From: Trissonchulus latispiculum
Taxonomy: Eukaryota; Nematoda; Enoplea; Enoplida; Ironidae
Reading direction: 5' to 3'
NCBI GenBank assembly: GCA_030248195.1
Contig: JASAND010021138.1
Location: 1-64,000 of the forward strand
DNA: 64,000 nt
Shown here: piece by piece, positions 7,741 through 64,000 of the stretch
Layout of the letters: each line of letters starts with the position of its first letter
How positions within the stretch are numbered: the stretch's first letter is position 1
Program-made: the position numbers and the translations under genes
Notes under the pieces: generated by a model
What the model saw: only the letters and a program-made list of their open reading frames with translations
Databases searched by the model: none
What the model was told of the DNA's origin: nothing

Positions 7741-10609
7741 CTACCTTTGAAAAAACACTAGATAATTGGGCCTCCGACATTGACAAATCGAGGTGTTGAG
7801 AATCGAGTTCAGTGGAAATTGAAAGTGCCTCCGGAGTAGCCTGGAGGGGCCCCTCCCCCACGGAGCAGAACCGCCCCCTGGCCGGGCTGACACCATAGAA
7901 ACTTGAAATTGACTAAACATCTGATTTGCCTGTTGTAAGGTGACTCCGGTGGAAGGGGGAGCTGACCCACCCGAGGGAGGGGCAGCTTGAGCTCCCGCTC
8001 CCGAATCGGACGCAGGTACAAAATTTTGTGACAACTCCGGAATACCAGCATTAGCCATGACAATACGCTGGTACGGAGTTGGAGAAGTATTTGAAGTTTG
8101 AGCAGGAGTGGGGTGAAAATTTTGAACCGGGGCAGAAGGTGCCTGTTGCCGAGTGGGAGGAAACAAGGGTTGAGGAGTGGAAGATGGAGCAGAAAATTGA
8201 GGTGGTTGAGGGTTGGGCTGGACAGGCGCATACTGTGTAGGTGGAGGGGGTGGTGTATAATTTACGGGTTGATAATACTGTTGTTGATTCGCGGATGCCT
8301 GATATTGAGGAGAATAACGCGGCTGGTTGTAAGAAACGTGGTCAATTCGTTCCGGGAGGGGGCGAGTTTTGTAGTCAGGAGGGGCTTTAGAGGGATATCT
8401 TTCCCAACATTTTTCGGGAGGGTGTCCCCGCTTTTTACAATATCTACAGGGGGCGGAAAATTTCTTACGTTTTTCCTCATCCCACTTGGCCAAGGCTTCT
8501 TGGATGTGCTGTTCAAACCAATCCTTCATCTCTCGGAAACCAAGGCGGGAGGCAGCGACTTCTAAATTTGCCTGAGAGGTAAAATCTGAGGTTCTTTGGT
8601 TCTGAGATCTATTATCAGAACCCCCTTCTTCAACATAGTAAATGGGCAAATCGTACGATAAAGTGTCGCCCTCCGGAGCCCTGGCTTCGCGAGACTCCAG
8701 ACGGTCAATGATGCGACGCACATCTTGCATGGTCGGGCGTTCACTCTGGTAGAGGGAGGCCAGTGCAAGGGCGAACTTATCGTGGACTCCGGCAAAAAGT
8801 TGTTGAACGCATTGTTCCTCCCGTTCCTCCTGGGTGTCCCACAGGTCGAGGGCCATAGCCTGCAGTTCAGAAATATAATGACGGACAGATTCATTGTGAA
8901 GTTGTTTTCGGTGAGCAAAAGCAGAAAATCTATCACGTAAAGAAAGTTGAGGTTTTGGAAACTGGGATTTTATCAATTCAAGAAAACCAGTGTAAGACTC
9001 CACGACCTGTGGGCCACAACGGGAGGCGAAAATTTGAGCTTTTCCGGAGAGTTTATTCCAGAGAAGACGCCCCCACTGAGCCTCCGGGACCGCATGAACC
9101 GCCACGGCCGATTCAAATTGAGGAAGCCAATCCTCAAAGTAAGCATATTTCGGGTCGTAACGAGGGACTTCCCGTAGGACTTCAAGATAATACCGAAAAA
9201 GACTAGTATCAAATTTAGAGACAGAAATGTCCGTTGGTTGCATGGTTTCGGGAGTGGGGTGACGAGAATTTTTGGGCGTTTTTGATTTTTCCCCACAGTA
9301 TGCACCGTATGAGAACTCTGATTTGAAAAAGATGAGGGAGTAGGAGGGGGACCCGGAGGAGGTGGGGAAAGTGATGGTTGGAGGTGTGGCGGTATATACG
9401 TACACACTTGTTGTGAACTAGAAACTGGCGGAGCAATGTTAGGTGCCGAACTGTGGGGCTGTGGGGGGAATTACCCCCCGGAGGTTCCTGTCCAGCAGGG
9501 GGGGACGCTGCGTCCTTGCCCTCCCATAAGGAGGACACAGACAAGTGTTGTTCCAGCTGCTGGGAGGCCTCACTGAGGGTGGGCGGGTGATTTTGAGATA
9601 CATAATCGGTTACACAAGCATGAGAGGCAACCATATCTGCCAAATAATAGGGGTTTACCGGAGCCTGTTGTGGTACGTACGGGGGTACCCGGAGGGGCGG
9701 AAGATTTTGCTGGGACCCCTCCCACAAATTGTTTCTATCCAGTTCAGCGACCACTGGATTCTGAAAAACTTGCTGTTCTAGCCGGTCATATTCGAAATTT
9801 GCGGGTGTACGTATAAAATAGTGTCCCTCCGGAAACTGTTCGTTGGGTGGTTGATAGCGAAGTTGGGGAACTTGCTGTTGATGTTGGTCGGGAGCTGCAA
9901 TTTGGGCACCTTCATAGAGATGCTGTCCGTAAGAACGGGGATGAATCGGAAAATATTGGGGGTTCTGATTATTTACAAAACTATATTGAGCTGTGCGATT
10001 TGGGGAAGCTAAAGGGGGATTTTGAGTGCTGGGGTGGGGGACTTGTAGGGGAGGGGGTGACGGGGGCCGTGTATGATGTAATTTTGGTGCGGAGGGGCCC
10101 CCGGTGCAAACTGGAGTGCGATATACTGAAATATGAGAAGGAGCCGTGGCTCGATTTGGTAGGGGGTTTCCGTATTGGTCCCGCGGAATGACATGCCCCC
10201 CCCAAATGAGACAACTGAGGGGCTTGGGAATTTCCCGGCGGTACGTACGTATTTTTCTGAAAATCTGCCAAGGCCGCTGGAATGCTATGTGGAATTTGGG
10301 TATTGGGTAGGTAATTGGGCTCTGGGGGGTGATACCCCCCACCAAAATTCTGCTCCATGTATGATGCGGGGGTGTTATGATTTGCACTTCCTCCTTCAGA
10401 CAAAATACCCGAATTTTGACTGTTCGCAGAATTGTAGACGGACTCATTTTCTGAATGAGCGACATTTCCCCGAAATTTTGCTGAAAATTTGGTCCGGTAG
10501 GAGGTGGAGGAGTCCCATTTTCGACCCGCCGACAACGAGTGTCCCGACAATGCCAGACGGACCCGTAACATTTTGCTCAAAATTTTGTGAAAAACTTGAA
10601 TCCATGGGA

Positions 10610-30397: not shown

Positions 30398-30403
30398 TTT
30401 ATT
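30398..30403 (-). terminator. Candidate AATAAA polyadenylation signal of the collagen-PEBP gene
   Basis: AATAAA on the minus strand, 183 nt downstream of the TAA stop. It is the first such hexamer I see after the last exon. Confidence 0.45.
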
Positions 30404-30585: not shown

Positions 30586-32230
30586 TTAGGTATAAATTAG
30601 AAAGTATGAAACGGCAAAAATGTTCAGTTTTTGATTTTGTGCAAACTGTTCCACATTGAAAGCTTCTCTGCCAGCTAGACTCGAATCGGCAGCAAGGCGG
30701 CTGGTTTGCTCCAGAACCACAAAAATGAAACGATGTCGACCTGGAATACAAAATTTTTAATTCCAAAGATTTTAATTAAAATTAATACTTTTTGATTAAA
30801 AATGTTAATTGCAATTTATATTGAGTTTAACTTCAAGTTATGCATTTAGTTATTGAGTCAACACTTTGACACGAGTTTACACATAGGACTGAGGACTAAC
30901 CTAGTTGCTATGCTAAACTGTAGATAAGCTAGTCTGAATAAACTTATTTTCGACCACACAATTATAAATTTATCTATTTGCTTAATTTTTTAGTTTATAA
31001 TTAGCTTTTTTGTTTATTATTTGCTGTGTATTTATTACTTAGTGTACAATTACCCGAGCCTTTAGCTGGACTTGGTGTCAAATACTCAAACCAGACATCA
31101 CCAGTGTTGAGTTCAGTTCCCACAATGTTGACCACAAACCACTGTATAAACAGAGGCTCGGGAGCGTCAACATCTAAAATGATTTAAATTGCGAATTTTT
31201 GCGAACCAAATGTCTATTGGACAGAAATCAGGATTGAAAGATGTGAAGAAAAGTGTTCACGACGGACACCTAATTTCCGAGTTTCGGTACCAGTACAGCT
31301 TACCAACTGATGTGCATAAACCGATAATTGTATAGCTTATTGCATTAATTTCAATGCTTGCTGACTTCCAAAAATCTATAAAAGCTATTTTTCACATGAT
31401 AGGAATCAGTTTCTAAACTGGCTTCCGGACAGTAATCTTAGATTCTAGTTTAACCTATCTTCATATAAAAGATTTAGTCTAAAAAGTCTTCACTCCACCA
31501 AACAAAAACCAGAGCTGGCTATTCGGTTTAATTCTCACAGGCGAGTAAGCGGTCTGTTATCTTTCAGTAAACATCTAATATTCTATTTGATTAAATTTTA
31601 AATATTTAAATTTTAATTTAAATTTTAATTCTATACTATTTATTTACCGAGCAGCATTAGTGAGTAGAGGTGGTCCAAAGATTCAGGCCAGTACAGAAAT
31701 CTTGGAGAATTGGCAACCTAAGATAAAGAAAAAACGAACAGCACCAAATAAACAGAAACGCAAAACAAGCAATTTGGATAATAAATAGAGTGAAAGGTTC
31801 CAGTCAGGATTGAGAGATGATTTCGCCTTTTAGGTTAAAATTTTACATTAAATTTTAAACTACTTATTCGGAATTAAAAGAGAAAGCTCACCTGCTCAAC
31901 ATCATAAACTTTTTGTTCTTCGATGGAACTGGAGGTAAATCTGAACTAAAAAAGGAAAAAAGGACATTAAAAATTCAGTAAAACAAAAATATAGTTCAGT
32001 GAACGAGTGGAAGATTGGTATATTTAAAGTTAAATAGAAATTTAGCACAAAAACAAAAAATAATGTCCGAGAGATTGGTTTTAGATTGTGAGAGGAACAG
32101 CATGTGTCACAAAGGGGTTTGACTTAAACTTACTATCACTTCAAACAACGGAGTGGTACTAAAAATTTGTGGCACAATCTGAAGTTCGCGAAGTTTGGCT
32201 TGGAATTCGAATCGACGGATCGGTGAAAAC
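30586..32230 (-). other. PEBP domain 3 (exons 14-18) and C-terminus
   Basis: Encoded by exons 32230-32134, 31945-31892, 31717-31648, 31173-31054 and 30740-30586. Landmarks: [87 protein letters not shown], then TAA at 30588-30586. It lacks the Arg-rich part of the DPDAPSR loop, has Gln in place of the HWL histidine, and is shorter (about 165 residues), so it is the most diverged domain. Confidence 0.87.
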
Positions 32231-35200
32231 CTAAAATAGAAAATTAATCACCAATATTAATATTTTATTTTTATTTTATTTTAATATTAATATCAATATT
32301 AATATTAATAATCAATATTAGAAACTCGCGACGAAATTTGCAACCGTTTTGCCAAGATCGAATCCTTTCATAAATATTGACAAGCAATTGTAGAACAATT
32401 GTCACGTCAGTTGGGATACAAATTCCTTCTCGTTGAATCAAAATGATTTCTTCAAAATAACTTAATAATTAATTAATTAATTAATTGATTATTACATGAC
32501 AATTTCGGCCACAGTGGGATCCCAGTCGGCATAGAAGAAATTTCCTGCCACCGGTTTCTGGACACAACCATTTCGACGGACGAAGGAACCCACATTGAAG
32601 TAGAGTCGGTCCTCGAGCAAATCCGAAGATAGGGTGGGACTGAAGATGGGATCAATTCTTCGGGTTTGCTCGAAGACAAAGAAAATGCAGCGATGTGCCC
32701 CTGAAACACAGATAGAATTTGAAAATACTAAATTCCAATTGAGTTGAAACTTGAAAAGCGGAAGGTTTACTTAATTTTCCGAAAAATTATTGATAAAGTT
32801 CATTTGTGAGCATGCCTTTATGGATGATTAGAAAAAGTGAAGCAAAGCGCTCAAGGCAGGGAATCGAATCACCGACTTGGCTGGCCTAAGTGACAAAATG
32901 TTTTGATCTATAATTACACTGATATTCTTCCTTTTGATTTTCGATAAAATAAGTTTCATCTTAGATCATAATTGTAAATATGTTCAAATATGATCAAGAA
33001 AGAAATGAAGAAAAGTGTCCAGGGCGGAGATCAAACCACCGAGATGGTTGAACCGTATTCGACTACTCTGCTAGGTTACCAGAACAGACAATTACTCAAT
33101 TGGAGTGATTTCAACATTGTCGGGCAAACATTTTGTAGGATACTAATTTCAAGGTTTAGAATTAAGTATCATACCAGTGGTTTGCTGAGGTTGCGGTCCC
33201 AAATACTCCGCCTGAAGATCGCCTTTGGCTATGGAACTGCCGGGGCAATTGGTGACCAGCCAGTGTAGGACACATCGCGATTGATAGTAGTCGATACTGG
33301 GTACATCCGAATCTGGAACGCACATTAATTAGTCCGAATCCAGTTTGTTTTGTACTTTTTTGGCATCTGGAACAGGCTCATCCAACTGAATGTTACTTTC
33401 TGTAGGGTTAGTGTTTGACTTGCAGATGTTGATTTTACTCAACGAATTTATCATGAGCGAGAAAAATAAAGGATTGTTTTTAAATCTTTACGAAGAAAAA
33501 TAACGACTGCAAACATATTGTGAACGTTACCGACAAATATCACAGTATAGAGCTATTAGTCAACGAATTAGAACTCTAGCTCTGCCACAAGGGGTTAAGT
33601 CAAATTGTAGTCTCCTTAAACGTAAAAGTTAGATCACTAAAAGCATCACTAGGCAGACCAATAGATCGATAAAATTGATCTCAAAGTTAGACACCAATTG
33701 ACCGGGCCGGAATTACTGCAGTTGAGTAGGCTTGAAACAGTTCGCCATTTCGGCCCATTTCAAGATAAAAGTCACTTTTTGATGCGTTCTGATCTTCCAC
33801 TTGATTTTCTTGAAGCTTTTATTTTCATGGGGGTTCTTGAGGTTCTGGGGTTCTTTATTGTTTGTAGAGATTTGATCTATAACTATGTTTAGTTTCATTT
33901 TTTGATGGGGGTTCTGGGGTTCTTGGGGGTTCTTAACTTTTCGAAGAGATTTGATCCGTGACTACATATATTTAGTTTCAAATTTTTGATGGGGGTTCTT
34001 GGGGTTCTGGGGGTTCTGAAATTTTTTTCAGGAGTTTTGATCCTCTACTGCCTAGTTTTAAGTGTTTGCTGGAAGTTCTGAGTGTTCTGGAGTCCGGGTG
34101 TACCGAAAAGTGTGCGCGTTGTCTGGGCTTAAATTAAGGACCAACTTGTTGTTCTTGTCGTCAGCTTTCGATTGATACCCATATTGTGGATATTGGATGT
34201 TTCATCACAGAATTTTCAGTCTAAGTTTATGAGAAAAGCCAGGAGGACCCCCCCCCCCCAAGTACACCCCGGTTATATGCTACAAATTTGATGATTGAGA
34301 TATATATACATATTATAAACATATCATGTCTGCTGAAGTACCTGCTGAAGGAAAGGATCCGCAACGTAGTCACGTACAAATCAAAGTCCTGGATGCAAAC
34401 GCATGAAAAAAATTTGAGAACCTCCTTTTTTTCTGATGGGGGTTCTGGGGGTTCTAACTTTTATCTTGACATGGGCCGCCATTTCTAGTTACGGGTTACA
34501 TGTGCTAACTAGGAAGCAAGCAGTGTTTTGTAACCGGGACTTTGTATTCATACCAAGAGCGAGAAAAATTAAGGTTGTTTTAAATCGCAGCGGAGAAAAA
34601 TAACGGCTGCAAAAATATTGTGAACGTTACCGACAAATATCACAGTATAGAGCTTATTCGGATCAGCATTCCATCGAACAGACGGTTGTTGACGACAGTC
34701 CGCTGGTTTCCCTCTTCGACTCGCCACAACCTCGTAGCCCGATGAGTAGTTGACCTAAAGCTCAAAATGTAGACAGTTACACTTCGCCGAATACCATATA
34801 GTCTACCTGATATGTGCTGATAATGTATTTTCAGTATGTTGGAATGTTGACAATAACTGGCACAGAATTTACATTTGTATTAAGTAATTAAATTGTATTA
34901 AATTGGGTGTTATTTATCATCAGTAGAGCTTTGTGGTGCCGGCATCATATGCGTCTTGGTTCGATCTCTAACAGAGGTTTAATTTTTATAAATTAATAGA
35001 ACAATAATGTGCTTAACGAGCCAAAATGGTCCATTAGGTCACCATTTGAAAATTACATAACAAATCAACAAAATCTGCATCGGCCGGGAATCGAACCCGG
35101 GCCTCCCGCGTGGCAGGCGAGAATTCTTCCACTGAACCACCGATGCTTGTGAAAGACGATTTCACTGCTGGTCCGTTGACTTTACAACGATCTTGATTTT

Positions 35201-38200
35201 TCCTTGCAATTACACAACCGGCAGTTTTGTTAATCACAGACTGTAAATTGCAACAGTTGGGAATGCAATAACTGCAAATACGGCTAGTTTACAGTTTGAT
35301 GTTACACATTTCATTCGTCTTAGGATGGTTTCTTAATGAAAATTAGAAAATCGACCTGACAGTAACATTCCGGTGATTCGCGAACGACATCCGTAACGAC
35401 TTCGTGTTGGCGGAAGGTTTCGTCCACGCTGGCACCGCACCGGATCTGACTTCTAAAACGAAAAATTAGAAAATAAAAATTGAATAAATAAATTTTTTTA
35501 AAAATAAGCATGATACCTACAAACTGGACTCATTTTTGCACATTTTTCTATTTTTTCTAGACTTCCCAGTTTTGAGATTTCAGGGTTTCTAAGTTCCGAA
35601 CTCCCAAATTTAAATTTAAATTATGATTTCATTTTTAATTTAGAAGAAAAACATCGAAGATTCACCTCGTCACATCTTCGATTGAGGAGGTCAGGTAGAA
35701 GTTGCCAAAGGCCGGCGGTCGCTCCAACTCGTGTTCGATGACAAACGCCGTGACATTGAAGTTGGCTCGACCGGTCAGAGTGGTTGCTGAAATGTGCTCA
35801 AAGGTGGTTGGGGACAATCTCCGTGACTGCTTGTAGACCAGAAATACCATCCGATGTGGGCCTGAAATATTAAAATGAAAGCCAATGAACAAGTAAGATA
35901 TTGTGCAAAAGATTAGAAGTTTTCGCTGGGCTAACGATTGTTTACACGTGAGTATTTTTATCAAGCAAAATGCGTGCGAGGGCCCGGGCTGAGCAAACAT
36001 AAAGGACCTGCTGTGCTTAGCATATTGAAATGGATGATATTGGATTTGAAGTGGGGATCGAACCCATAACCATCGGTTTAATACTCCGACGCTCTGCCGA
36101 TTGAGCCACCCAGGCACTGGCACTGTGAGAAAACCAAAAAAACATCAGAATTAAAGTTTTTTGCTCTGCTTTCACAAAACTGGACTCTATTTTAGATGAC
36201 ATCAGTTCTTCTACCCGTGCAAATTCACAATACACGCAATACATCGTAATACACGACATTACCGTACCATCGTCTGTCATTGTAAGGTTGTACTCTGCAA
36301 TCACATCCCCAAGAGTGTATCTACTGCCCGGCACATTTACAATCAACCAATTCAGATAGGAACGTTGGCTTGGATTTTCTCGACTCGGCGAGTCAATATC
36401 TAAATTAATTGAAATGAAAATTAAAAATTAATTAAAATTGATAAAGATTGCTTAATTGATTTGATGAGTTGCAATTAATAATGGCTAACTCATTTTTGTA
36501 TGCAGTGATTAAATAAACCAAAATTAGAGATTTCAAATTTATAACAACGCGAATAAAAATTATTATTATTTGGTCTGATTATTCTACTATTTTATTATCA
36601 TTTTGGTGATGGTTTAATTTACCAAGAAACATTAGGGTGTAGAGTTCGTCATCTCTCGCAGACCATCTGCAGTAGCCTGGCTCAATTCTGGTCTAAAATT
36701 AACCAGCCAATTAAAACTAATGGATGAATCAATGATTAGCAGTCATTGTTAATACAGAAATCTGTGAGCTTTTTTGAAAAGAGTTGTTTAAAAGGAAACA
36801 AAGTATTCTGCAAACAGTGTCAGTTCCTAAAACAGGCAGAAAGTCAGTTTGTTCTGAAGGTATTTGAAATTGCGTCGAAGCTAGTGTCATCCATGCACTT
36901 ACATAAATGTATGGGATGATGTTTCCAAGATTAACCTTTTGTGTTCTATTTTGGTATTCAGCCTGAAATGATAAAGTATCTACTAAAAACAAGAGTACAT
37001 AATATAAGAGTGTGCCTAGTGGCACACTCTATGTTGTCAGAGCAAAAAGTATGCTCTGCTCGCTAATGGCCCACCCCCCCGCAAATTAGACCCATCACTT
37101 CAAAGAATTTTGAGCGCTATGTTTGTGTTCTAAAGCTCGAAGCAGGCACAAAATTCGCGCACGCACTGCTTGTGTTTTCGAGAGCGTAGAGCTAGTGAGC
37201 GTACTCCCGTTTCGACTAGGTACTGATTTGCGGGGGGGGGTTACTAGTGTCTGGGGGTGGGCCGTTAGCGTTCAGAGCATAGTTTTTGCTCTGATAACAT
37301 AGAGCTTGCCTAGTGGCATACTCTTATAATTATGTACTCTTGCTACAAATAATAAATAAACAGTTTAAACTAGTAATTTAATTTCTTTCATTATTTATAC
37401 ATAATCACCGGATTGCACCAATGAAGGTTAGCTCGGTGTTAAGCTAACCTCAAGGTTAACTCCGAGTTAACCTGATAATTCTCAGTTAATCCGTTGCACC
37501 AAATCAGGTTAAGTTAACCTCGAGGTTAACTCCGAACTAACTTAGTTTTCAGCGGCAGAAACTTAATCCTGAGTGCGATCAGGATTAACTGGGTACTAAC
37601 TTTATTTTTAACATTTCAGCCTTAATTTTTCGGAAAAATCCGTCACGGACTTTTCAAACTATTATTTCTGCATGCTCCATTCTTTTTTCCAAAAAATATT
37701 TTGCACTTTAGTTTTAAAAGTTCCTCATGAGATTCGATCCACTACTTCAGCAATGGCCTTGAGCTCAGAGTTAAGGAGAGCTAAGACTTAGCTCGGAGTT
37801 AACCTTGAGGTTAACTTAGTCGTCAGCTAACCTTGACGTATGATGATTGGATACATTGACTAAAGAAACTAATATGATTGGTTAAAGATAACCCTGAGCT
37901 GAAGGTTAGGGTTTGTTATTCTTTAAAAGACCGAGGTTGGTGCAACGGCCTAACTTTAACTCTGAGTTTGAGCTCAGCTGTAGAATAGCTAACACCGAGT
38001 TAACTCGGTGTTAAGCTAGCACCGAGCTAAGTTAGTCCGATTTGGTGCAATCGGGCGAATAACTGATTCTCTACAAAGCAAAATTTAATTAGTATGCTTC
38101 CAAACATTTTCGCCAAATTAATCCTTTCTCAAAACATGCTCAACTTGGCCAATCACAAACTACATACTATCTACTTCTAAATCTCACTTCTAGAATACAC

Positions 38201-41200
38201 TTTGGCGGTTCCGGTATGACATCTGGCACAATGCCATACTCCACGAATCGATCTCTCACGAAGGGACTGCAGATACCGACTTCCACAGTGATCGTTTCAT
38301 TTCGCTGCTCTTCGCCGCAGCAAATTCCTGGTCGACCCGGCTGACCCGGGGGTCCGGGCGGTCCCTTGGGACCGGGTTCTCCCGAAACGCCGTCCGGACC
38401 CGGATTTCCGGGAAAGCCTTTCGGACCCGGCGGGCCGGTACCTGGCTGACCAGGTATTCCTGAAATAGAAAAGAATTAAGGTTGTGTACCCGTTTGATTC
38501 AAATTAATGTCAAGAATGACAACAGTTTCACAGTGACGATAGTCATTTTCCTAATAATTTTTCGATAGGTTGCTGGAGAGAATTAGATCGGCAGAAAACG
38601 TCAAGGAGTTGAATTCATAACACCATTTTTTGGACCTGAGATAGGAATTGAATCTGCTGATTACGGTTTGGCAGACCAACATTGAGCTAACTCCTTGAGC
38701 CATTGAGTATTAGGAACTGTCTCAAAATTGTACGGCTGAAAATGCGCATTTTTAGATCGCATATACGATCTGCAATTCGCATATGCGATTTAATAATGCG
38801 CATTTTGTTTTTTCAGCAAACTGCTAGAAGTTCAAAAAATTTCCATGTATTGTTTCAATAAAAAAAATTTGTAAGCAAGTCTCCTAAAAAGTACTTGCGT
38901 TTATAGCTGCTAAACTATAAGGTTTTGCATGATACAAAGCCGCTTTTTACAAAATGTTGGCAACTGCTACAGCTTTTTACTTCTACGTGAATGAATTTTA
39001 AGTTGAAAAAACGCATAATGCGATTTGTTAAATCGCATCTTTCATCAACTAAAATACGTTTCATCAGAATCACATTATACGATATTTATTTTGAGACAGT
39101 TCCTTAGTATAAAATGGAGACCAAGCGGCAGTGACAACGAGCTTAAACGTTGCTTCGAATGCGTTAAACATACCATTTATTCTGAGAAGGGTAACATTTC
39201 ACGCACCGAAAGGACAGGAATATTAATTAAATGCCCCAGTTTAGTTAAAATTGCCCAAATTCCAAACTAACCCACCTGGCTCTCCAGGCAGACCAGGCAA
39301 GCCAGGTTCACCCGGTGTCCCAGGATCACCGGGAATCAGAATTTCCAGCGTTCCCGGATCACCGGGTGGACCGTCCGGGCCGGGCTCCCCATCATCTCCT
39401 GGGGGTCCGGGAGGTCCGGGTTCCCCGGGCTGACCATCCTGTCCCGGAATTCCGTCATTACCGGGTTCTCCGGGTGGACCTGAAAGTACATCATGCTAAT
39501 CATTAGTTAATTATTATTAATTTACATAAGTTAGTTGGAGCCGTGCAAATTAAGACTACCTCACCACATGCCTGGGAATGTGGCTTTAAAGATTTTCAGT
39601 CTTGTTCATTTTTTCATTAAATCCCATTTTCTCTAAGGCTTAAACAGTCTAATTTCAGAGATGAATATTAGCACATGTCAGCTGTCAACACTTTAACAAA
39701 AATTAACAATCAAACATTAAATTTCAAAAGTTCCCCTCCAATTTTTAGACAAATTTGTCATTCAAAGGTGCGAAGAAAAGTTTCCAGGCCGATCGCTGAA
39801 CCCGAGTTGGCTGATCTGCAACCGAGAACTCTAGCCGCTAAGCAAAGCTTCGAAACGTAAGGCTGTCTCAATTTTTTTTTAAATGATATCAACATTTCAG
39901 CTACTGATCAAGAGCTCAATCGGTAGCGGTGTCAATTCTTCCCCATAGAAATTTTCCTTCCGGAAGAATTTCACCGGCGATATTTTTCCGGAGGAAAAAA
40001 TTTCTAGGGGGAGAAATTGCACCGTGACAGCGGCATTCTGTATCATACCTGGTTCGCCTCTTGGTCCTGGTTTACCCTCCACCCCAGGGGGGCAAGGTTC
40101 ACAGGGCGGAGGTTCCAGGGGGTTACAGGTTGGCGGAGGTTTACCAGGACGACCGGGCCGACCGGGGAGACCCCGCTTGCCAGGAATTCCCGGTTTACCC
40201 GGTCGGCCTTGGGGCCCCTGTTGGCCGGGAATGCAGCATTCTAAAATAATCTAGCAATCACTTAATATTATCTCTGCCGTCTACCTGATGTAAATTAAAA
40301 TGAAAACTCAAAAAATAAATAAATTGAATTGAAGCTGACGCTTGGTGCTTTCGTAAGCAGCACTGAGATTATGATAATGAAAGAATTTATTTCAATTAAA
40401 TTAACACTAACTGCAGATAATTAGTGACAACTAATATATTAAATTAACCAATCCACTAATTCATAGTTAAAATTAATTAACTAGTAGTAATAATACGAAA
40501 TAGATTTATTATTAAAACTGCATCTGAGACTTGTATACCTTCACAGGTGCTTTGAGCTACCAAAGCTTCCTGACGTTTAGCTCTCAGAATATCAGTTACA
40601 TTTGGGGGCACGAAGGTTTTAGGGATTGGCAATTCGCTAATTTCGGCCTGAAAGTATCAAATATGCTTCAAATATGCAGACACAAGCTAATTTGGGGGTT
40701 CCTAGGGCCTGGGTATTTGTGCCCGTCATGAATATCGAGAATTATTTTAATGGACAGTCGAGGCTCAAAAAATTACATTTTAATATTAAAATTTCGAAAT
40801 CCTTGCGCTTCAAGCATTGACCATTATTATTTTTCCGTGAAATCTAGCCAAAATCCGACTCTGCTCCTGAAGAAATTTCGTATTTGTCACCTGATTTCTG
40901 TTTTCTATCATTTACTTTGATTATCAAAATTATAAAATATTCTACACATTCAATTAAGTTGCTTTTCATCAGACTGCAGTCATTCTCAGCCGGTTTTAAC
41001 CACTAAAAATCCCTATTATTTTATTCCCAACCAAGATTCAGCCTTAGTGCAACATTAATCAAAAGCGAGTCATGTGGGTCATATCATTTTCCGCAGGCCA
41101 TTTGTAGTGTGGGTCAGGTGGGTAGGGTCAAGGGTCAGCGGATCGCGGGTGTGTGGTGTGGGGTTACCTCTTAGAATAGCTTCCATTATTCCTTGCACCT

Positions 41201-43454
41201 AAGAGCGGCTCACAGGGTGGAGCAAAATTTTCCACATATTTTAACAATTAATTCATTGAATTTATTAAATTTAATTTCCTTAAATCTTCTCATTTGCCGT
41301 AGACGCAACGAAAACCTAGGTATCACGCTTTTTCTTAGCTTCCATCAGATGAATTAATTAACACTTTTTCAGGTAATTAAGCACCACAACAAAATGGAAT
41401 GTTGATAAAACGTTGGAAAGGTGCCTGTGCATAAGACGTTTACAAATTTCGTAGCTTCACTGTCTCCTAAAAATAATAAAAAAACTTGTCCAGATGAAGT
41501 TTATTAAAACAAGTTTCAAAACTTATGCAGCAGTCTCAGTATTTCATAACTTGTGACAAGAGTTACAAGAATTTCATAAACGTTAGTCAACTGTAACTTA
41601 AGCAAAAACTGTATATGCAAGAATCTTAAATTTTTTATTAAACTGGTACAGAGTTTAAAATGGCGTGTTTATTCTGGAGTTTTGGAAGAGTTAAGATGAT
41701 AAATAGAAGCCAAGGTTTAATTTGTTAAAATTGATAAAAGTTGCAATTTTAACATTAACTCAAGCATGCATAGGTTGGTGGTAAATTCTTGGGTGAAGCG
41801 AGGGAAGAAACAGTTTTTATGCGATTTTTTGATTATACAAATTATACGAGTTAAATTTTTTCAGTCTGTAAAACAAATTAATTTTTGCAAGAAACTGTCT
41901 GGATTCTGGCCAAAAAATTTTTCTTAGCCAAGTAAACTGGATCGTCACGATTTGATATGATAAATGGTAGCCAAAGTTTACTTTCTTAAGGATGATAAAA
42001 GTTGCAACCAAAGCATTAAGTCAACCATGAATGGATTAGGTGGCAAATTTTTGGAAGAAGCGATAGATGAAAGCTTTTTTGCAATTTTTTTGATAGTACA
42101 GAAAAATTGGAGGGTAGTCATTAAAATAACAAATTTTTGTTTAAAATTTTTGGATTGTTGCCAGAAATACCTGTACGAAAGACATGAACAAGTTAACACT
42201 TATACTGTGAAAGGAATCACCTCAGAGTATCACCGAATGAAACAGAAAGAACCCTGAAGAAAGACCGTGACCCCGACCCGAAGATTAATCCAAAAATTAA
42301 TTAATCCAAAAATAGTCAGTAGAATATGTTTACATAAATTAAGCTAAATTCAATTAAAATATACTAATATAAGTTTACATAATATTAGGCAGCAAATTAA
42401 GGAACGAGTTATTATTATTAGGAGAAGATCGTCATAACATTTAGTTTTCATAGGCTGACTTGCTTATTCGAGCGAGGTTTTCTTATTCACGAAGCCATGA
42501 ATTAACGATTAAAGCTTATGGATTAGATATACGTCAGCAAACACTGTCCACAAATATGTCATTTGTAAAATTAATGGAATAGAATTTCTGGCAAGTATAA
42601 ATTATAGGTTTCAGACGTTTGCCAACTTTTTCGAGCAGGAGACGTGAACAAACCCAACACCCCTAAAATCCAAAACCTCACTATGTGGGTTAGATTTACA
42701 ACCATTATGTCTATTCATTGCATGCAAAGGTTAGCTGTTATTATTGCGTTACGTGCTCAAAAAATTGTTCTGAAACTTATTGCCACTAACGGTGACCGGC
42801 AGGAGGCGAAATTCGTGATGGAGCTTTCGATTTTAGTGCCCAAAAATTGCCTTTAAGAACAGAGTATAAAATGCCAACCTCCCAAGCTTGGTTGATTGGC
42901 TGGCTGCCAAGGTTAAGGTTAAGGAGCGGGACTGGTCCCAGAATGTTAAAGAGCAGGGAAATGGGTTATTTCGTAAGTTTCAGCCATTTACGTAAAGGAT
43001 TAAAGCCGTATGAGTCAAAAATACCCGAAAGGAAATCAGCACCTTAAAAACAACGGAGCGTCCAACGCCTTAAAGGCTAAGATATGTACGCATTGTATTG
43101 TAAGGCACTAGTATACGCTATCTTTGTAAAAAAATGACCATCTTTAACACATAGTCTTGGCCACGGAGCATGTAGGTAATCTGCATTGGGGGATAAACAG
43201 AGAACAGGACGCTTGCCACCTTATCAACATATTCCAAATATATAGTCCAAAACACTCGTGTTACATAACATTACACAATCTGTGCCAGTTATTACCTTAC
43301 ATATCCGTGTGCCCCTTATGGCTTCCGCATTCAGTTGCTGAACGTAACTGAGGCTATAGTATAAGGTTGCACCAAACGCTAGAAGTGTGACGCCGCTCAA
43401 GCCTAGCGCCACATAGATTACAACGAGATAAGCCTTATCGTTGACGCAACCCAT
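30586..43454 (-). CDS. Transmembrane collagen fused to three PEBP domains, 18 exons, 817 aa
   Basis: Exons on the minus strand, in coding order: 43454-43296, 40647-40539, 40240-40049, 39479-39276, 38459-38188, 36962-36903, 36692-36623, 36399-36268, 35861-35666, 35452-35356, 34754-34631, 33312-33175, 32700-32496, 32230-32134, 31945-31892, 31717-31648, 31173-31054, 30740-30586. All junctions are GT-AG and frame-consistent; the total is 2454 nt including TAA. Residues 8-35 form a hydrophobic anchor; RAKR at 75-78 is a furin-type site; Gly-X-Y blocks run from about 95 to 266; PEBP domains lie at about 285-464, 465-652 and 653-817. The N-terminal half matches nematode cuticle collagen organisation; the PEBP half shows DxDxP and GxHR motifs three times. 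Inferred role: secreted or cell-surface matrix protein with ligand-binding heads. I do not know this architecture from any named family. Exon borders were read by eye and need transcript support. Confidence 0.86.
31195..31275 (-). repeat. SINE tail fragment
   Basis: AATCAGGATTGAAAGATGTG then GAAGAAAAGTGT matches the complement of the SINE tail at 48790-48815. Confidence 0.5.
32835..32905 (-). repeat. tRNA-like SINE fragment
   Basis: The minus strand has a B-box-like GATTCGATTCC and a decayed A-box region; no full tRNA fold. Confidence 0.4.
32985..33085 (-). repeat. tRNA-derived SINE copy
   Basis: In minus, a tRNA-like head with GGTTTGATCTCC followed by CCTGGACACTTTTCTTCA, the same tail as at 48778-48797. 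Confidence 0.55.
33450..33556. repeat. Duplicated 3' part of exon 11
   Basis: About 100 bp resembling 34558-34660, including the last 25 or so coding bases of exon 11 and its GTAACG donor. Confidence 0.75.
33815..34110. repeat. GGGGGTTCT minisatellite, about 80-bp period
   Basis: Three copies of TTTTTGATGGGGGTTCT...GAGATTTGATCY...TAGTTTC in the intron between exons 11 and 12, with a stray fragment at 34433-34455. Confidence 0.7.
35077..35146 (-). tRNA. tRNA-Gly (anticodon GCC), nested in an intron
   Basis: The minus strand reads GCATCGGTGGTTCAGTGG, anticodon loop CTGCCAC, then GGGTTCGATTCCCGG and CCGATGC. The acceptor stem GCATCGG/CCGATGC pairs fully, the T-arm is intact, and the A and B boxes are present. 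It lies between exons 10 and 11 of the collagen-PEBP gene, on the same strand. Unlike the SINE-related tRNA-like copies nearby it has every stem, so it is likely a functional gene. Confidence 0.93.
36043..36115 (-). pseudogene. tRNA-like pseudogene or SINE head (Lys/Asn-like)
   Basis: The minus strand starts GCCTGGGTGGCTCAATCGG and has a B box GGTTCGATCCC, resembling tRNA-Lys, with an anticodon loop reading GTATTAA (anticodon ATT). The 3' acceptor strand does not pair with the 5' one. It lies in the intron between exons 8 and 9 of the collagen-PEBP gene. Confidence 0.55.
36990..37342. mobile_element. MITE of the CAAGAGTACATAAT family
   Basis: 353 bp, inverted ends CAAGAGTACATAATATAAGA; inner palindromic parts GTGCCTAGTGGCAC and CAGAGCAAAAAGTATGCTCT. 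Related to 53336-53891. Lies in the intron between exons 5 and 6. Confidence 0.75.
37411..38052. mobile_element. MITE with GATTGCACCAA ends
   Basis: 642 bp between GATTGCACCAA and TTGGTGCAATC; the interior is dense with GGTTAACTCCGAGTTAACC-like palindromes and GCTCGGTG blocks in both orientations. Target duplication not clear. Confidence 0.65.
38625..38705 (-). repeat. tRNA-like SINE fragment
   Basis: In minus GGAGTTAGCTCAATGTTGG (A box) and GATTCAATTCC (B box). Confidence 0.45.
39760..39860 (-). repeat. tRNA-derived SINE copy
   Basis: In minus GCGGCTAGAGTTCTCGGTTG then a degenerate B box and CCTGGAAACTTTTCTTCGCA, the shared tail. Confidence 0.5.
40539..43454 (-). other. Exons 1-2: signal-anchor and furin-site region of the collagen-PEBP gene
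   Basis: Exon 1 (43454-43296) starts at ATG and encodes 53 residues, with an uninterrupted hydrophobic stretch at 8-35 ([14 protein letters not shown]...) followed by a YVQQLNAEA segment, as in the nematode cuticle collagen N-terminal domain. Exon 2 (40647-40539) encodes 36 residues plus one base and contains RAKRQ, fitting the subtilisin/furin cleavage site that follows the membrane segment of cuticle collagens. The phase (0 then 1) joins exactly to exon 3, giving TCEECCIPG across the junction. Exon 2 was found because exons 1 and 3 are out of phase without it. Confidence 0.8.
40648..43295. other. Intron 1 of the collagen-PEBP gene
   Basis: No further exon found; the phase match of exons 1 and 2 does not require one. 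Contains AT-rich sequence and partly repeated segments (41715-41770 and 41950-42015 share ATAAAAGTTGCAA...). Confidence 0.5.
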
Positions 43455-50200: not shown

Positions 50201-53200
50201 AAGAATGAAAAGTACGTGTCAAGAATTTTAAGTCTGAGTCTAAGTTTGAGTTACCCGTTTTCATCAAACAAATCCACTTTGAGGTTTCCTTCGTCATCTA
50301 CGGCCACAATGCTCGGCAACTGAATTCCCATTTCGGATTCAGTTTCTGAAATAGAATTTGATGTCGATTCTATTTTCAACTCTGCCTCACACCAGCGTAC
50401 TAGCACAAGCATAATGACTCACGACCGACCAGAACCTACAGCCACTACAAGTTTGCAGTTTGCTGCGTGCCAGAAAAACCGGGCAGTGGGTGGACTATTC
50501 GTGTTTCTCATCTGCTCTGTTCTGCTAGATTAGAGCTGAAATTAATGGTTTGTCACACTCTTAGTTATTATGTACTCTTGGGACTAACAAATAAAACGCG
50601 GAACTATTCTCAGCAACAGAAATGAAATTAGCAAATTTTCAACTCATTATTTTTCTGTTAGGAATCTACCGTGCTGGGTTTTCTACAAGTTTTCGGCAGA
50701 AATTAATTTGTTTTAGCAGACACTGCTTTGACAGTCATTAGATTGGATTAGTTATTTTCATAACTTCGACTGAATGAGATTAGAAATAATTTTTTGTTGT
50801 CATTTGTTAGAATTTCATAACTATTCTGAAATCTGCTTATCCTTTAAATCTTCTGGAAATCTCACTGCATTCACTTTGAGGATCCAATTTCTTAATTTTT
50901 AATTTCTTAATTTAATTTCAATTTCTTAATTTTCCAATTTCCAATTTTCCAATTCCAATATTGTATTCTTAGTAAATGATTATGTATGTAGTAGTAAATT
51001 ATTATGTATGTAAAGTTATGTAAGTAAACCTAATTGTTCTGTAGATTTGATGAACTACATACGAACATACATACAAATATACCTGCTTTTAAGAATACCG
51101 CTGAAAATATAACTTATAACCAAACTTATTATTTCATTAATTCGAGTCCAATTGAAGTCGGCTTATTTTACGTCTTAGGAATTTCATCAAACTACTCCTC
51201 GAACGTAAAATGTTTATTATAGTCGCTTCTAAATAAAAGTGTCAGATTTAAGACAATTGCAAGACGTAAAATTACGTCCAATGTGCTGTTTGCTTATCAG
51301 ACAGATCTCAAACAATTGAAGAGATTAAATGAAACAGTCACCACGGCAGTAATTAGGTCAAAACCGCTAATTGCAATTTTTAGGAACCAGGTCAAAATTT
51401 TGTGTTAATCATTTAAACCTGGGACAGCTGTCGCTATTAGTCTTACATAAGTAAAGTCTTAAGGCGTGCCTGAGTGCCCGATTTGCATATTACCAGCTAT
51501 GGGTTCTTGGACCAGGACTTCCAGAAAGCCATAGTCCCCGATGCTGACTTCGGTGACCGGCTGCAGAGAGCTGTCCAGAATGCGCAGCTGGAAGGAGGGA
51601 GATATGGCACTTCCACTGACTAGGAGAGAATTGGAACTGAAAGTAAACCAAATGCCACTTTATTGAGGGTGGCATGACTCCAGTCTTGCATTCTAATGGT
51701 GAATGTGAAAGTGAAAGTCATGTCTCAAATGTATGTATCCTTTCCTATGTTTAACACATGTTTAGTGATAGTTGAGAGCCATCCAGCAAGACACACAAAA
51801 ATGTTGCGCTACGAGATGAATTTACAGCATCAAGTCCTAGACATGGTTTGTGATCTTTCGTTCAATTCAGTGGTCCAATTTGTGGGCCCTAAATTCCGAA
51901 ATCTTCAGGTTTTTAACTGATTTTTACAATTTTTCAAAGAGTGAACTTTGCTAGGGTGATAATTTAATTAAGCAATTAACGATTAAGGATAATAAGCAGT
52001 TTATTGACACATAAGTAATGTAGTAGTATTTAAGTTACTTACTCAGAAACATTATACACTCTCAGTCTGTAGGTGACCTGCAAATCCGTGGTCGATATGA
52101 TCTTACAGATCAATCGAAGCAATCGATCACGAAATGTGACCAGCTTTCCGTCTCCATACTTGACAAAAATCACATTCGAATATTCACCATTGTCCTAAAA
52201 TATAAAAATTAAAATTATAAAAAATATTCGTTTTTGTAAAGTTTCATTTTTCTTGGCCACTAAGATTTGACATGCATATTTTGCATATCTTAACGACTAA
52301 GTTGCATACAGTTATTGTACGAATACGTGATAATAAATAATACGAGTCTCAAAATATTAGAAAACACTATTCACCACACAATATTCACCACACCAACTTT
52401 AAGATTTCAGATTTTCAGGTTTCTATTGATTACAGAAATTTCGTTTACTGAAAATTCTAAATTGAGACGACAAGTTTACTTGTGTTGCGCAAACTTAGTG
52501 TACCTTAACTTGTGTTCCGCACTGATTGTAATCAATTGCGGTCTGAAAATCGTATTGATCACTGATCAATTGATCACAGGCTGCTATCGATTGATTGGAG
52601 TTGCGAGTCGATACTTTGCCATTGAACAGGCGTCTGGCTGAGCTCTGAATCACCATACTGTCAGGCTTACAGCGGAGTCGAACTGAAATTATATTAAAAC
52701 TGCAATAAATTGCAATACTCTGCAATGCGATGATAACACTAATGCAAATAAGTCCAACCATTTTTGTCTCACCTAAGGTGAGATAGCTCTTTCATTTCTA
52801 GCATGAAGCAAACTAAGATCTTCAGAAGTGAACTTTACACCCTCTATTCAACGTTGTTCCAAGTAACTGTTCACGTTTTTGTAAGGAGGGGTCCTGTAAA
52901 TGGATCCGTGTTTAGCCAGTGATTTCCCCAAATTTCATTTTTTTAAAATATTACTGGAATGTTCTGGATTCAATAATAGTCACATTATAGTCACATTATA
53001 GTCAACATTCCAATTATAGTCATAATGAACGGGGTACTAGATTGCTTTTTGTACTTTTCAGAATATCATTTTTGCAAGGCAACTATTTGCAACTATTATG
53101 CAGGGCAACAATTTTTTGCAACTCTTGGTTGCATCTAAAATTGTAAAAATTCAACATGCTAAATACGCTAATTAGCTTCTGTAACTTGCTGGCAGTTCTA

Positions 53201-62200: not shown

Positions 62201-63922
62201 AACTCTACTCTACTTGATGTTGTATATGCAATAAAAGCTTTGTTGTAAAATGTCGGTAACCATAGGTTTCTGCAAAATCCGTCGCCCATGTGCCATAAAT
62301 GCCGCATCTCTTGAGCGCTCATTTGTTTGGATTTGTAAAATTTTTCACAAAGGCTAGTTTTCACTTGGACTACCTGCATTATCCAGGGATGATCGCTAAT
62401 TTAATTCTCGAGTTTAGGTGAAATATGGCAGTTTGCTTTCTGTAAAAAGTGAGGAACTGCAGGGAGTATCCTATGGGGGACACATAAAAATCCAGGATTT
62501 GTTTCAATTAGGTTCAACCGGCTTCAAGTAGCTCTAACTGACTAACTAAGAACCCACCTTACAGTCGTCCGTTCTGACAACGTTGTCTACGATTTCGTCA
62601 AACATAGTCGTAATTCCTTCTCCACTTCGCAGCAGAAAGTGACACTGATCTGTTAGCTCTAGAACCAGAAATGGGTGTATCCATCATTTTTAACTTGTGC
62701 TCTTGTGCTTTGTGCTTTGTGCTTTTTGTGCTTTGCGATCGAAACAATCTATCATTGAAACGATGCTTCTAGACTAAGATTAAGCTGCAAACTGTAGCCG
62801 ACTGGAACTGAAAAATCATTAGCCTAATTGCTTAAATAGTTGTTCTTAACTAGTGAACCGAGTGCAAAGTTTTGTGCTGCTCAGCAACAACTAAGGGAGG
62901 GGGGAACAATCCTGACATAATTATTCACTAAAATGTTTTGGATCTTGCTTATCTTCGATTCTTTCCTAATCTCCGTGACTTAAATCACTGATATAGATGG
63001 TGCACTAATTATCTTCAGAGCCACTAACCAAACGGCATAGTCTTAACAAAGGCCAAACTCGCGCGCTTTGTTTCATGTAACAAAGGAATAGCATTAATGT
63101 AGAATTATATATACACATGCTTCTAATCTTAACAAAACTCAAATTGCTCATTTTAGTGTACAGAATATTTGTACAGTTTTCAGATTTCCGATTGCTACAG
63201 AGTCTTGTAAACGTTATAGATTTTGTGGAACTCAGATTCCGGCTTTAGCTCAATTCATATGAAAGATCCGTTGCGGCAATTGTCTGGGGGGTCAGAGGTC
63301 AAGGGGTCCATTCCGATAGAAGCGATTTTTTCCGAAATTTTTGGTTTGGTACAAAACCAAAATGTTTCCCCAGCAAGCACCTTTATGAAGTGCAGAATTT
63401 CCGACCTTTTTCCGAGTATTAAATAAATACCTAAGTCAAATTAATTAAATGGGTTTAATTAAATGTTAAGTGAATAACTGTTGAAATTTTGTTCTTTCAT
63501 TATAGACTCTCCTTTCACCAAAGCAATCAATAAATCTTAAGTCAAAACAGATGGTATGCGAAGAACGTGACGAAGAAAATGAAAGTTGGTATTAATTATT
63601 CAACATTTAACTAATTACCGAATTCCTTAATTCCCGTATATACCTTCATGACAGTTATTTTCGTACATGACGACTTCCGAATTTTCCACGAAATATTTCG
63701 CATCATCCCGCACTGAAAATCGTGAAATCTGACTCAGTCGACATTCGGTTGTTTTTCGATTGAAAATCGCTGCCCGACAATTCGATTCCTTCTGACAGGA
63801 GGCCAGACATTCACCGACAGTGCTTTCGGAAAATTCACGGAAAATCATTTTCGAATATTTGACGTCCAATCCTGGAACCAGTTCGAAGGACCAAAGTTTA
63901 GAACAACCGCCATCTTCGGATG
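45856..63922 (-). CDS. PAN/apple-ZP domain transmembrane protein, last 10 exons (5' end outside window)
   Basis: Exons in coding order: 63922-63644, 62658-62558, 56128-55951, 52682-52504, 52194-52043, 51636-51494, 50345-50255, 49434-49287, 47250-47076, 46187-45856. All junctions are GT-AG and in phase; 591 complete codons lie in the window. Counting from the first complete codon: PAN domain 1 at 1-92, PAN domain 2 at about 93-185, ZP domain at about 186-425, furin site RKRR at 434-437, membrane segment at about 516-539 followed by ARRRKER, and a short cytoplasmic tail. This order matches NOAH/NompA-type apical extracellular-matrix proteins that organise cuticle and sensory-cell attachment. 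The first exon seen begins with two bases of a split codon, so upstream exons lie beyond 64000. It runs in the same direction as the collagen-PEBP gene, 2.4 kb upstream of it. Confidence 0.88.
46201..46230. repeat. Solo end of the CAAGAGTACATAAT MITE family
   Basis: CATACTCTTATGTATTATGTACTCTTG, one inverted end only, just upstream of the last exon of the PAN-ZP gene. Confidence 0.6.
47300..47525 (-). repeat. tRNA-derived SINE copy
   Basis: In minus: leader GATAAGCCTGATATGGGAGT, then GATGGTGTAGTGGTAAGCAC (A box), GGTTCGATCCC (B box), and a tail with GGGTACACGGTGCCTGATG. Confidence 0.75.
47815..48627. mobile_element. hAT-like MITE 2 (GGGTCTGGGTCA-rich)
   Basis: 813 bp, inverted ends CAGGGATGGAAACTGGGTCA, perfect 8-bp target duplication CCGTTCAG (47807-47814 and 48628-48635). 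Both ends carry arrays of GGGTCTGGGTCA. No transposase. Confidence 0.92.
48655..48835 (+). repeat. tRNA-derived SINE copy
   Basis: Head GTGTGGCGCAGATAGTAAAG, B-box GGCTCGATTCC, tail CTGGACACTTTTCTTCACAT then CTTTCAATCCTGATT. Confidence 0.65.
49287..52682 (-). other. ZP domain (five exons)
   Basis: Exons 52682-52504, 52194-52043, 51636-51494, 50345-50255 and 49434-49287. The ZP-N half has four cysteines in the expected order (RLRCKPDSM, AACDQ, NQCGTQ, RLICK). The linker and ZP-C half show IGDYGFLEVLV and GCSLDD, then KPCWKDC. ZP modules polymerise into extracellular filaments. The trailing furin site and membrane segment are the standard set-up for release and assembly. Confidence 0.85.
50553..50580. 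repeat. Solo end of the CAAGAGTACATAAT MITE family
   Basis: TCACACTCTTAGTTATTATG then TACTCTTG, identical to the right end at 53864-53891. Confidence 0.65.
53336..53891. mobile_element. Palindromic MITE with internal 27-bp array
   Basis: 556 bp; ends CAAGAGTACATAATGACTAA inverted; likely target duplication ACAACAG on both sides (53329-53335, 53892-53898). Seven tandem ACAACTGAGTACCTGGTGAC-poly-C units at 53427-53606 face inverted copies at 53726-53805 across a spacer with a further inverted repeat. Confidence 0.85.
54983..55762. mobile_element. hAT-like MITE 3 (GGACCCGGACCC-rich)
   Basis: 780 bp, inverted ends CAGAGTTGGCTCCGGGTCC, perfect 8-bp target duplication GAACAGGC (54975-54982 and 55763-55770). 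Subterminal arrays of GACCCGGACCC and CCGCGGGTACC. Confidence 0.92.
56296..56344. repeat. (GATT)n microsatellite
   Basis: About 12 units with one GATC interruption, in an intron of the PAN-ZP gene. Confidence 0.9.
57228..57330 (+). repeat. tRNA-derived SINE copy
   Basis: GGCACCGTGGTGTAGTGGTT (A box), GGTTCGATTCCCGG (B box) and GAGCCG. Closest to the head at 47380-47480 in minus. The anticodon arm is not canonical. Confidence 0.65.
57950..59377. mobile_element. Foldback element with GGTTCACACTAGGCAAT ends
   Basis: Ends CCCGGTTCACACTAGGCAAT and its inverse at 59358-59377. Inner arms 58040-58265 and 58828-59035 are inverted copies (CTCAGGAGGAGGAGAATCCGG / TCCTCCTCCTGAG), rich in ATATCCGG motifs. 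The right side has an extra 250 bp with TTGCCRGCAAT repeats. No transposase. Confidence 0.75.
59378..62557. other. Rest of the large intron between the PAN 2 exons
   Basis: A SINE-like scrap near 59490-59510 and a tRNA-like fragment in minus at 61955-62030 (GGTTCGATTCC). No exon found. Confidence 0.4.
63644..63922 (-). other. PAN/apple domain 1
   Basis: One exon covers the whole domain. Cysteine pattern: DGGCSKLWSFELVPG, then CLASCQKESNCRAAIFN, ECRLSQ, and NNCHE at the end. CxxxCxxxxxCRAAxFN is the core of PAN/apple modules, which mediate protein or carbohydrate contacts outside the cell. It is preceded by TTTCAG and followed by a GTATAT donor. Confidence 0.85.
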
Positions 63923-64000
63923 CTGAAACAAGAAAACATGGAGAGCAATTTCACAAACCTAAGGTAACCTAACCTAATTTACGTTTTAAACATAAAATAA

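Follow-up and report, generated by a model that had tools for sequence, protein, structure and literature searches.

A gene in Trissonchulus latispiculum predicted to join a cuticle-collagen-type rod to three PEBP domains

Can a single gene supply both a cuticle collagen and a row of PEBP domains? The question is raised by a locus in the nematode Trissonchulus latispiculum (assembly GCA_030248195.1). The stretch of DNA analysed, called the window below, comprises positions 1 to 64,000 of contig JASAND010021138.1, and the locus occupies 43454 to 30586 on its minus strand. A first-pass annotation had proposed here a single gene of 18 in-phase exons, coding for a membrane-anchored collagen that carries three PEBP domains.

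Genomic DNA is the source of both the gene model and the function discussed here, and the answer it gives is a qualified yes. The locus is probably one gene for a matrix protein derived from a cuticle collagen, which would be secreted, trimerised, cleaved after RAKR78 and placed in the cuticle together with its PEBP heads.

Such a fusion adds three domains of a family known mostly as small soluble proteins to a type of collagen that, in the relatives examined, ends just past the rod. If expressed as predicted, it would be a concrete nematode domain fusion kept by selection, in a group where most annotated fusions are considered artefacts. A further idea becomes testable with it, that the cuticle, which has lipid in its outer layer, also holds a lipid-type domain in place.

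One gene of 18 exons

Rebuilt from the window, the 18 exons join in phase to give 2454 nucleotides that code for 817 amino acids without an internal stop. The start codon lies at 43454, the stop codon ends at 30586, and all 17 introns begin with GT and end with AG. The chain consists of a membrane segment, a furin-type site (RAKR), a Gly-X-Y rod and three PEBP domains, in that order. At the stop rate of the introns, the chance of 817 stop-free codons is about 2e-26, a figure that overstates the case because the exons were picked for being open.

The two halves meet inside exon 5 (38459-38188, minus strand; residues 222-312). This exon holds the end of the rod (to 38320), the third Cys cluster (residues 268 and 269), a linker and the start of PEBP domain 1, which is placed at residue 288 (from 38262) by alignment with Tm16, a PEBP of known structure. 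The exon tail scores 58 against Tm16 and 52 against exon 10, where PEBP domain 2 starts (shuffles against exon 10: mean 20.3, standard deviation 4.3). In neither comparison did any of 5000 shuffles score as high, and the same is true of exon 10 against Tm16. The tail of exon 5 is thus PEBP sequence, which bears out the first-pass claim that the change from collagen to PEBP takes place within one exon.

A continuation of the gene beyond exon 18 (30497-30399, minus strand) was considered and rejected. This stretch is open after an AG, and the second copy described below is nearly identical to it at first, with a frame shift near the end as judged by eye. The last strand of PEBP domain 3 is already reached within exon 18, and the stretch is likely to be 3' untranslated sequence. 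An AATAAA at 30398-30403 (minus strand), about 180 bases past the stop, is a possible poly(A) signal that is also present in the second copy; many such hexamers occur in the AT-rich introns too.

A second copy under selection

Comparisons within the genome used the 734 Mb assembly, in which the window is part of a contig here called C14344. A DNA search with exons 4 and 5 (40 of 69 candidates scored) gave, among the matches listed, one other fused copy, on contig C575. About 59 of the 65 matches are a repeat found in intron 4, and two, on contig C10417, are plain collagens; as the search was made at the DNA level, diverged paralogues may escape it. The PBP profile, searched against the genome, gave four places, all outside the window. 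The fused gene itself escaped this search, its exons presumably scoring too low one by one, so the search could not have revealed others of its kind.

Exons 1 to 11 of the second copy are found on C575 (24094-14964) and exons 12 to 18 on contig C20073 (29848-27119). The two contigs share 1234 bases at 98% identity inside intron 11, a stretch that extends right to the end of C20073. Together they contain all 18 exons; no exon has an insertion or deletion, every intron has GT and AG at its ends, and the stop falls at the same codon.

The ratio of non-synonymous to synonymous change (dN/dS) between the two copies was calculated over 817 codons with a custom Nei-Gojobori script. There are 103.5 synonymous and 21.5 non-synonymous changes, and 21 residues differ. 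For the whole chain dS is 0.199, dN is 0.0117 and dN/dS is 0.059. By part, the ratio is 0.066 for the collagen, 0.010 for the linker with PEBP domain 1, 0.038 for domain 2 and 0.089 for domain 3, and past residue 90 the excess of synonymous over non-synonymous change is strong. Because the second copy has all its exons intact, with GT-AG introns throughout and so low a dN/dS, the fusion looks like a real gene under selection. The single gene of 18 in-phase exons proposed in the first-pass annotation therefore stands.

The second copy is probably the other haplotype, and a recent duplicate would serve the argument equally. Across longer blocks, introns included, the two copies are 81-96% alike. 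For reference, seven pairs of loci of the genome were compared, five of which match at 92-99% over most of their length; one pair (L001/L002) matches over about half, at 90-98%, and another (L048/L049) only in two short pieces.

The introns contain repeats as well. A 730-base high-copy repeat in intron 11 (34477-33751) occurs in at least 38 other places at 95-98%, counted among the 40 candidates scored out of 2521, is absent from the second copy and looks like a young mobile element. In intron 4, a repeat of about 400 bases (39106-38710), part of it palindromic, has many diverged copies in the genome and is likewise absent from the second copy. Also inside intron 11, 33449-33554 repeats the last part of exon 11 together with the splice donor and adjoining intron sequence (91% over 77 bases, 81% over 31).

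The collagen half

Cuticle collagens are often made in a type II membrane form with an RxxR site past the membrane segment. Their Gly-X-Y repeats fall into two regions, one of about 10 and one of 37-43, which are flanked by three Cys clusters (PMC11304992). The fused chain fits this description, and Pfam Collagen matches it with an E of 2.3e-24.

Exon 1 (43296-43454; this and all further exons are on the minus strand) codes for residues 1-53, with a short N-terminus and a membrane segment at about residues 9-34 (43430-43353). In 19-residue windows the highest mean hydropathy, 2.25, starts at residue 10; the best window starting past residue 40 reaches 1.24. The exon is 97% identical in the second copy (C575: 24094-23936). 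Exon 2 (40539-40647, residues 54-90) contains RAKR at residues 75-78 (40584-40573), between the membrane segment and the rod. It fits R-X-K-R and is kept in both copies. Cys cluster 1 (88/91/92) begins in the same exon. In the exon model, exon 3 (40049-40240, residues 90-154) completes it and adds cluster 2 (128/136/139) and the short Gly-X-Y block of 10 triplets (95-124). The main block of about 40 triplets, which has two interruptions, is coded largely by exon 4 (39276-39479, residues 154-222), to which Pfam Collagen matches. In one respect the chain departs from a plain cuticle collagen: it continues for 548 residues past Cys cluster 3.

The ordinary collagens of the same genome support the first-pass view of this half as cuticle-collagen-type. 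The Pfam profile Col_cuticle_N, which is found in none of 14 control genomes, matches at least 150 loci here among 285 candidates, all those listed being above the cut-off; alleles are counted apart, and seven loci have an internal stop. Given the range in which this family is known, the matches point to a nematode as the source of the DNA. Exon 1 of the fused gene is not among the matches listed. An open-frame rod was found in 8 of 20 loci fetched, several of the eight being probable alleles. All eight have RxxR past the membrane segment, and all eight frames end 9-18 residues past the rod.

One of these plain collagens, L035, aligns end to end with the rod half of the fused chain. Its RTRR stands opposite RAKR at residues 75-78, the Cys clusters pair, an interruption of the rod falls at the matching place, and GIC stands opposite GIC at the rod end. 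In the N-terminus, 25 of 95 aligned residues are identical. Past the rod, L035 terminates in an 18-residue tail, PKYCALDGGIFFEDGTRR, and the fused chain continues into PEBP.

Contig C10417 carries two tandem plain cuticle collagen genes, at about 65250-67399 and 76350-78639, that are also relatives of the rod half. Their Cys-cluster exon and their tail (GICPKYCALDGGVFFEDGT) are of the same type, and their N-terminus scores 55.5 bits to Col_cuticle_N.

The PEBP half

Pfam PBP matches the whole protein in three stretches (5.2e-29). Each domain alone is above the cut-off of 24 bits, with 26.4, 50.5 and 35.4 bits for domains 1, 2 and 3. The best match of every domain among solved PEBPs is Tm16, with E of 2.3e-30, 4.6e-32 and 4.1e-14 and identities over the aligned parts of 38%, 34% and 34%.

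Domain 1 begins in exon 5, which aligns with the second copy at 95% without gaps. It continues through exon 6 (36903-36962; 98% identical in the second copy), exon 7 (36623-36692; 97%) and exon 8 (36268-36399), where the Tm16 alignment places the DxDxP motif. Exon 9 (35666-35861) holds the GxHR motif and the C-terminal half, according to the exon model and the same alignment. Domain 2 starts after a linker in exon 10 (35356-35452) and extends through exon 11 (34631-34754), the last exon on C575, and exon 12 (33175-33312), the first on C20073, which contains DxDxP and the equivalent of His86. Its GxHR motif and C-terminal half are coded by exon 13 (32496-32700), again located by exon model and Tm16 alignment. 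For domain 3, a linker and the domain start lie in exon 14 (32134-32230), followed by exon 15 (31892-31945; 93%) and exon 16 (31648-31717; 91%). Exon 17 (31054-31173) carries DxDxP by the Tm16 alignment, and exon 18 (30586-30740) carries GxHR and the stop codon.

Exon 14 is weak when taken alone: 514 of 5000 shuffles scored as high against the exon-5 tail, 540 against exon 10 and 132 against Tm16. It is not clearly PEBP by this test, and the first exon of domain 3 therefore rests on position, phase and conservation. Domain 3 also lacks six residues near its DxDxP motif (DVDAP), and its C-terminus is about 10 residues shorter than those of domains 1 and 2. There are three PEBP domains, as the first-pass annotation had said; its description of all three as complete does not hold for the third.

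The ability to bind a ligand depends on the residues that we take to line the anion/phosphate pocket, numbered here after human PEBP1 from an alignment. Asp70, Asp72, Pro74 and His118 are present in all three domains of both copies. Position 86 is N, H and Q in domains 1, 2 and 3, so that only domain 2 has His86, and position 120 is M, C and F, so that Tyr120 is found in none; both positions are identical in the two copies. Plain PEBPs of the same genome (L001-L003, and L004 in the part seen) retain the canonical motifs. The pockets of the fused domains thus appear to be partly degenerate, which weakens the earlier suggestion that they hold phospholipid head groups.

The introns give a hint of where these modules came from. 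Plain PEBP genes (L001/L002, L003 and L004) have two phase-1 introns, one where the DPD motif has its first Asp, the other ahead of the HR motif; for the latter only the donor was examined in L004. Both introns recur, with unchanged position and phase, in each of the three fused domains. The PEBP modules therefore seem to have come from a PEBP gene with introns and to have been copied in tandem afterwards.

Could the fusion exist only on paper?

Joining neighbouring genes by mistake is a common source of apparent fusions. According to a 2026 study (PMC12964723), most helminth-specific two-domain fusions are annotation artefacts, and long stretches between domains are one sign of them; neither "collagen" nor "PBP" occurs in the main text of that paper. 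Here, too, a cuticle collagen gene might have been run together with a PEBP gene, or several, lying next to it. By Pfam borders PBP domain 1 starts only at residue 342, and the resulting interdomain stretch of about 70 residues, more than 200 bases, is not short by the measure of PMC12964723. Left unspliced, exons 9 and 13 meet a stop at once (TGA and TAA, in both copies), so domains could end there; an immediate stop of this kind arises whenever a phase-2 intron has GTGA or GTAA as its donor. What makes an artefact very improbable is the joining exon itself. Rod and PEBP start share it, the Tm16 alignment begins at residue 288, only 19 residues past Cys cluster 3, and the exon is in frame in two copies whose chains show a dN/dS of 0.059. 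A separate start for domain 2 lacks support as well. The candidate is an ATG in intron 9 of the window, which shares the frame of exon 10 and leads into hydrophobic residues. In the second copy this frame is open too, but neither that position nor any of the 30 codons preceding exon 10 is an ATG, and the candidate was rejected as improbable.

The gene might instead give two isoforms, a short collagen made by retaining intron 5 and the long PEBP form. Without a splice at the end of exon 5, the window reads six further codons before a stop and the second copy seven, and intron 5 has three AATAAA or ATTAAA hexamers. Yet the two tails are unlike (VRFRSR and VRFVVNM), and PEBP residues 288-312 would be part of even the short form, so this arrangement seems improbable.

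A secreted and cuticle-incorporated collagen

As a single gene, the locus would give a type II chain bound for the secretory pathway. Chains would trimerise through the rod and be cut after RAKR78 by a BLI-4-like convertase. The cleaved protein would then be laid into the cuticle or pre-cuticle with up to nine PEBP heads per trimer, a number that holds only if homotrimers form. Five of the six N-glycosylation sequons fall within residues 275-499, which is compatible with an extracellular chain.

The first-pass annotation had the protein remain anchored in the membrane. This end state is called into question by the furin-type site between membrane segment and rod, which has the same residue numbers as RTRR in the plain collagen. 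In C. elegans the site serves secretion: SQT-3 and DPY-17 mutated at the corresponding position are retained in the cell (PMC10538796). Cleavage is common without being universal, RxxR being present in 64 of 117 predicted membrane cuticle collagens (PMC10538796). Because the furin-type site is kept, a secreted, cuticle-incorporated form is likelier than a lasting membrane anchor; a transient anchor is left untouched by this argument.

The opposite outcome is a protein that remains in the plasma membrane, acting there as a type II surface receptor or tether much like the MACIT collagens and exposing its PEBP heads outside the cell. In favour of this outcome are a strong membrane segment, a topology common to MACITs (PMC4678570), and the membrane forms that make up about two thirds of cuticle collagens, not all of which have RxxR (PMC11304992, PMC10538796). 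However, an R-X-K-R site is kept in both copies, the nearest genomic relatives seen, which are cuticle collagens, have RxxR at the matching position, and MACITs themselves are shed at such a site (PMC4678570), so that a permanent tether is unlikely. As to the heads, they may bind no small ligand at all, their one function being that of bulky end pieces that give the collagen structure or cross-link it. The loss of Tyr120 in every domain and of His86 in two of three, together with the residues missing near the pocket motif of domain 3, would fit this. Against it, four pocket residues persist in all domains of both copies, domain 2 keeps His86 besides, and PEBP domains 1 and 2 are the most constrained parts of the chain, although a structural role would give such constraint too. 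Purely structural heads are a possibility, if on the whole a somewhat unlikely one. For the secreted fusion collagen, domain 2 is the best candidate for ligand binding because it alone keeps Asp70, Pro74, His86 and His118 together; the ligand might be an anionic partner or an epicuticular phospholipid. The other two domains more probably have a structural or protein-binding role.

Several observations weigh against a cuticle-placed fusion collagen. The N-terminus scores below the Col_cuticle_N cut-off of 23.5 bits, with 13.9 bits for the whole chain, 17.9 for the N-terminus alone (17.5-17.9 for exon 1) and 20.1 in the second copy; as controls, five shuffles (of nine made) and one rearranged N-terminus gave no such match. 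The Pfam check named in the first-pass annotation thus succeeded for PBP and Collagen and failed for this profile. Since the N-terminus has drifted and its score lies below the cut-off, the protein is filed as a cuticle-collagen-derived variant, not as a plain member. Residues 1-90 have a dN/dS of 0.411, based on just seven changes (3 synonymous, 4 non-synonymous). In the second copy a contig break falls within domain 2, and the window alone therefore has all 18 exons on a single contig. None of the fused PEBP domains has the full anion/phosphate pocket, given the residue losses described above.

No orthologue of the fusion was found in a protein collection in which few animal-like proteins turned up, and with it the same domain order, which the earlier annotation had marked for checking, was not found either. 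The PEBP region of the full chain gave one weak match (3.4e-4) among 6099 candidates, domain 2 alone gave two secreted-looking PEBPs among 50 candidates, and the N-terminal region gave none in 135 candidates at E up to 10. These searches show only the absence of a close relative in that collection. The statement that no such protein had been described agrees with the open-licence literature searched, mostly as titles and the starts of abstracts, in which no collagen-PEBP protein turned up.

What might the heads do? Phospholipids are present in the epicuticle (PMC11304992), which suggests, and does not show, a lipid role. A matrix-bound PEBP display, with up to nine heads holding lipid or an anionic ligand at the body surface of the nematode, is a speculative step further and must be regarded as doubtful. 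If true, such a display might tie the phospholipid-bearing epicuticle to the collagen layer, or catch lipids or microbes. We know of no use of PEBPs in the extracellular matrix of another animal.

Other features of the window

Upstream of the fused gene and on the same strand lies another gene (63950-45883, minus strand). It has a PAN exon (63630-63950, 41.7 bits), a frame that contains RKRR, and a membrane tail. When five further pieces were compared with Pfam, one gave a weak match to cuticlin-N (52528-52698, 16.5 bits, cut-off 27) and four gave none. It may code for a NOAH-type PAN-ZP matrix protein of the cuticle or pre-cuticle. Such a neighbour would fit an apical-matrix setting and proves nothing.

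A tRNA-Gly (GCC) is found on the minus strand at 35076-35146, inside intron 10, and a weaker tRNA-like match, also on the minus strand, at 36043-36115, inside intron 8. Elsewhere, an open frame of 558 residues (7744-9417, minus strand) contains a CCHC-like stretch. It has no Pfam match and is perhaps a retroelement gag-like frame.

Comparison with known systems

Mounting a globular head on a collagen stalk, and thus multiplying it, is a familiar design. It is found in the colmedins (gliomedin and UNC-122), in ectodysplasin and in defence collagens of the C1q and collectin type, where the heads are olfactomedin, TNF, C1q or lectin domains. To our knowledge, none of these stalk collagens is headed by PEBP domains. 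Gliomedin-type colmedins and the collagenous scavenger receptors are further models for a chain that stays tethered in the membrane.

The PEBP domains belong closest to the nematode Tm16/Ov16 branch, which supplies the best match of each among solved structures (5TVD; PMC5573103). Tm16 is present in excretory-secretory products (PMC5573103). In contrast to these PEBPs, the fused gene has three domains in tandem on a collagen, of which one retains His86, none retains Tyr120 and the third is shortened.

With the MACITs (XIII, XXIII, XXV and COL-99) the chain has in common a predicted type II topology, a juxtamembrane furin site and an interrupted triple helix (PMC4678570). It appears to differ at its end, which is PEBP domain 3; a conserved stretch of 34 C-terminal residues is described for MACITs (PMC4678570).

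The plain cuticle collagens of nematodes (PF01484 with PF01391), such as SQT-3, L035 and the genes on C10417, share with the fused chain the membrane segment, the RxxR site, the Cys clusters and the two Gly-X-Y blocks. Relative to them, its N-terminus has diverged, and the short tail is replaced by the 548 residues that hold the three PEBP domains.

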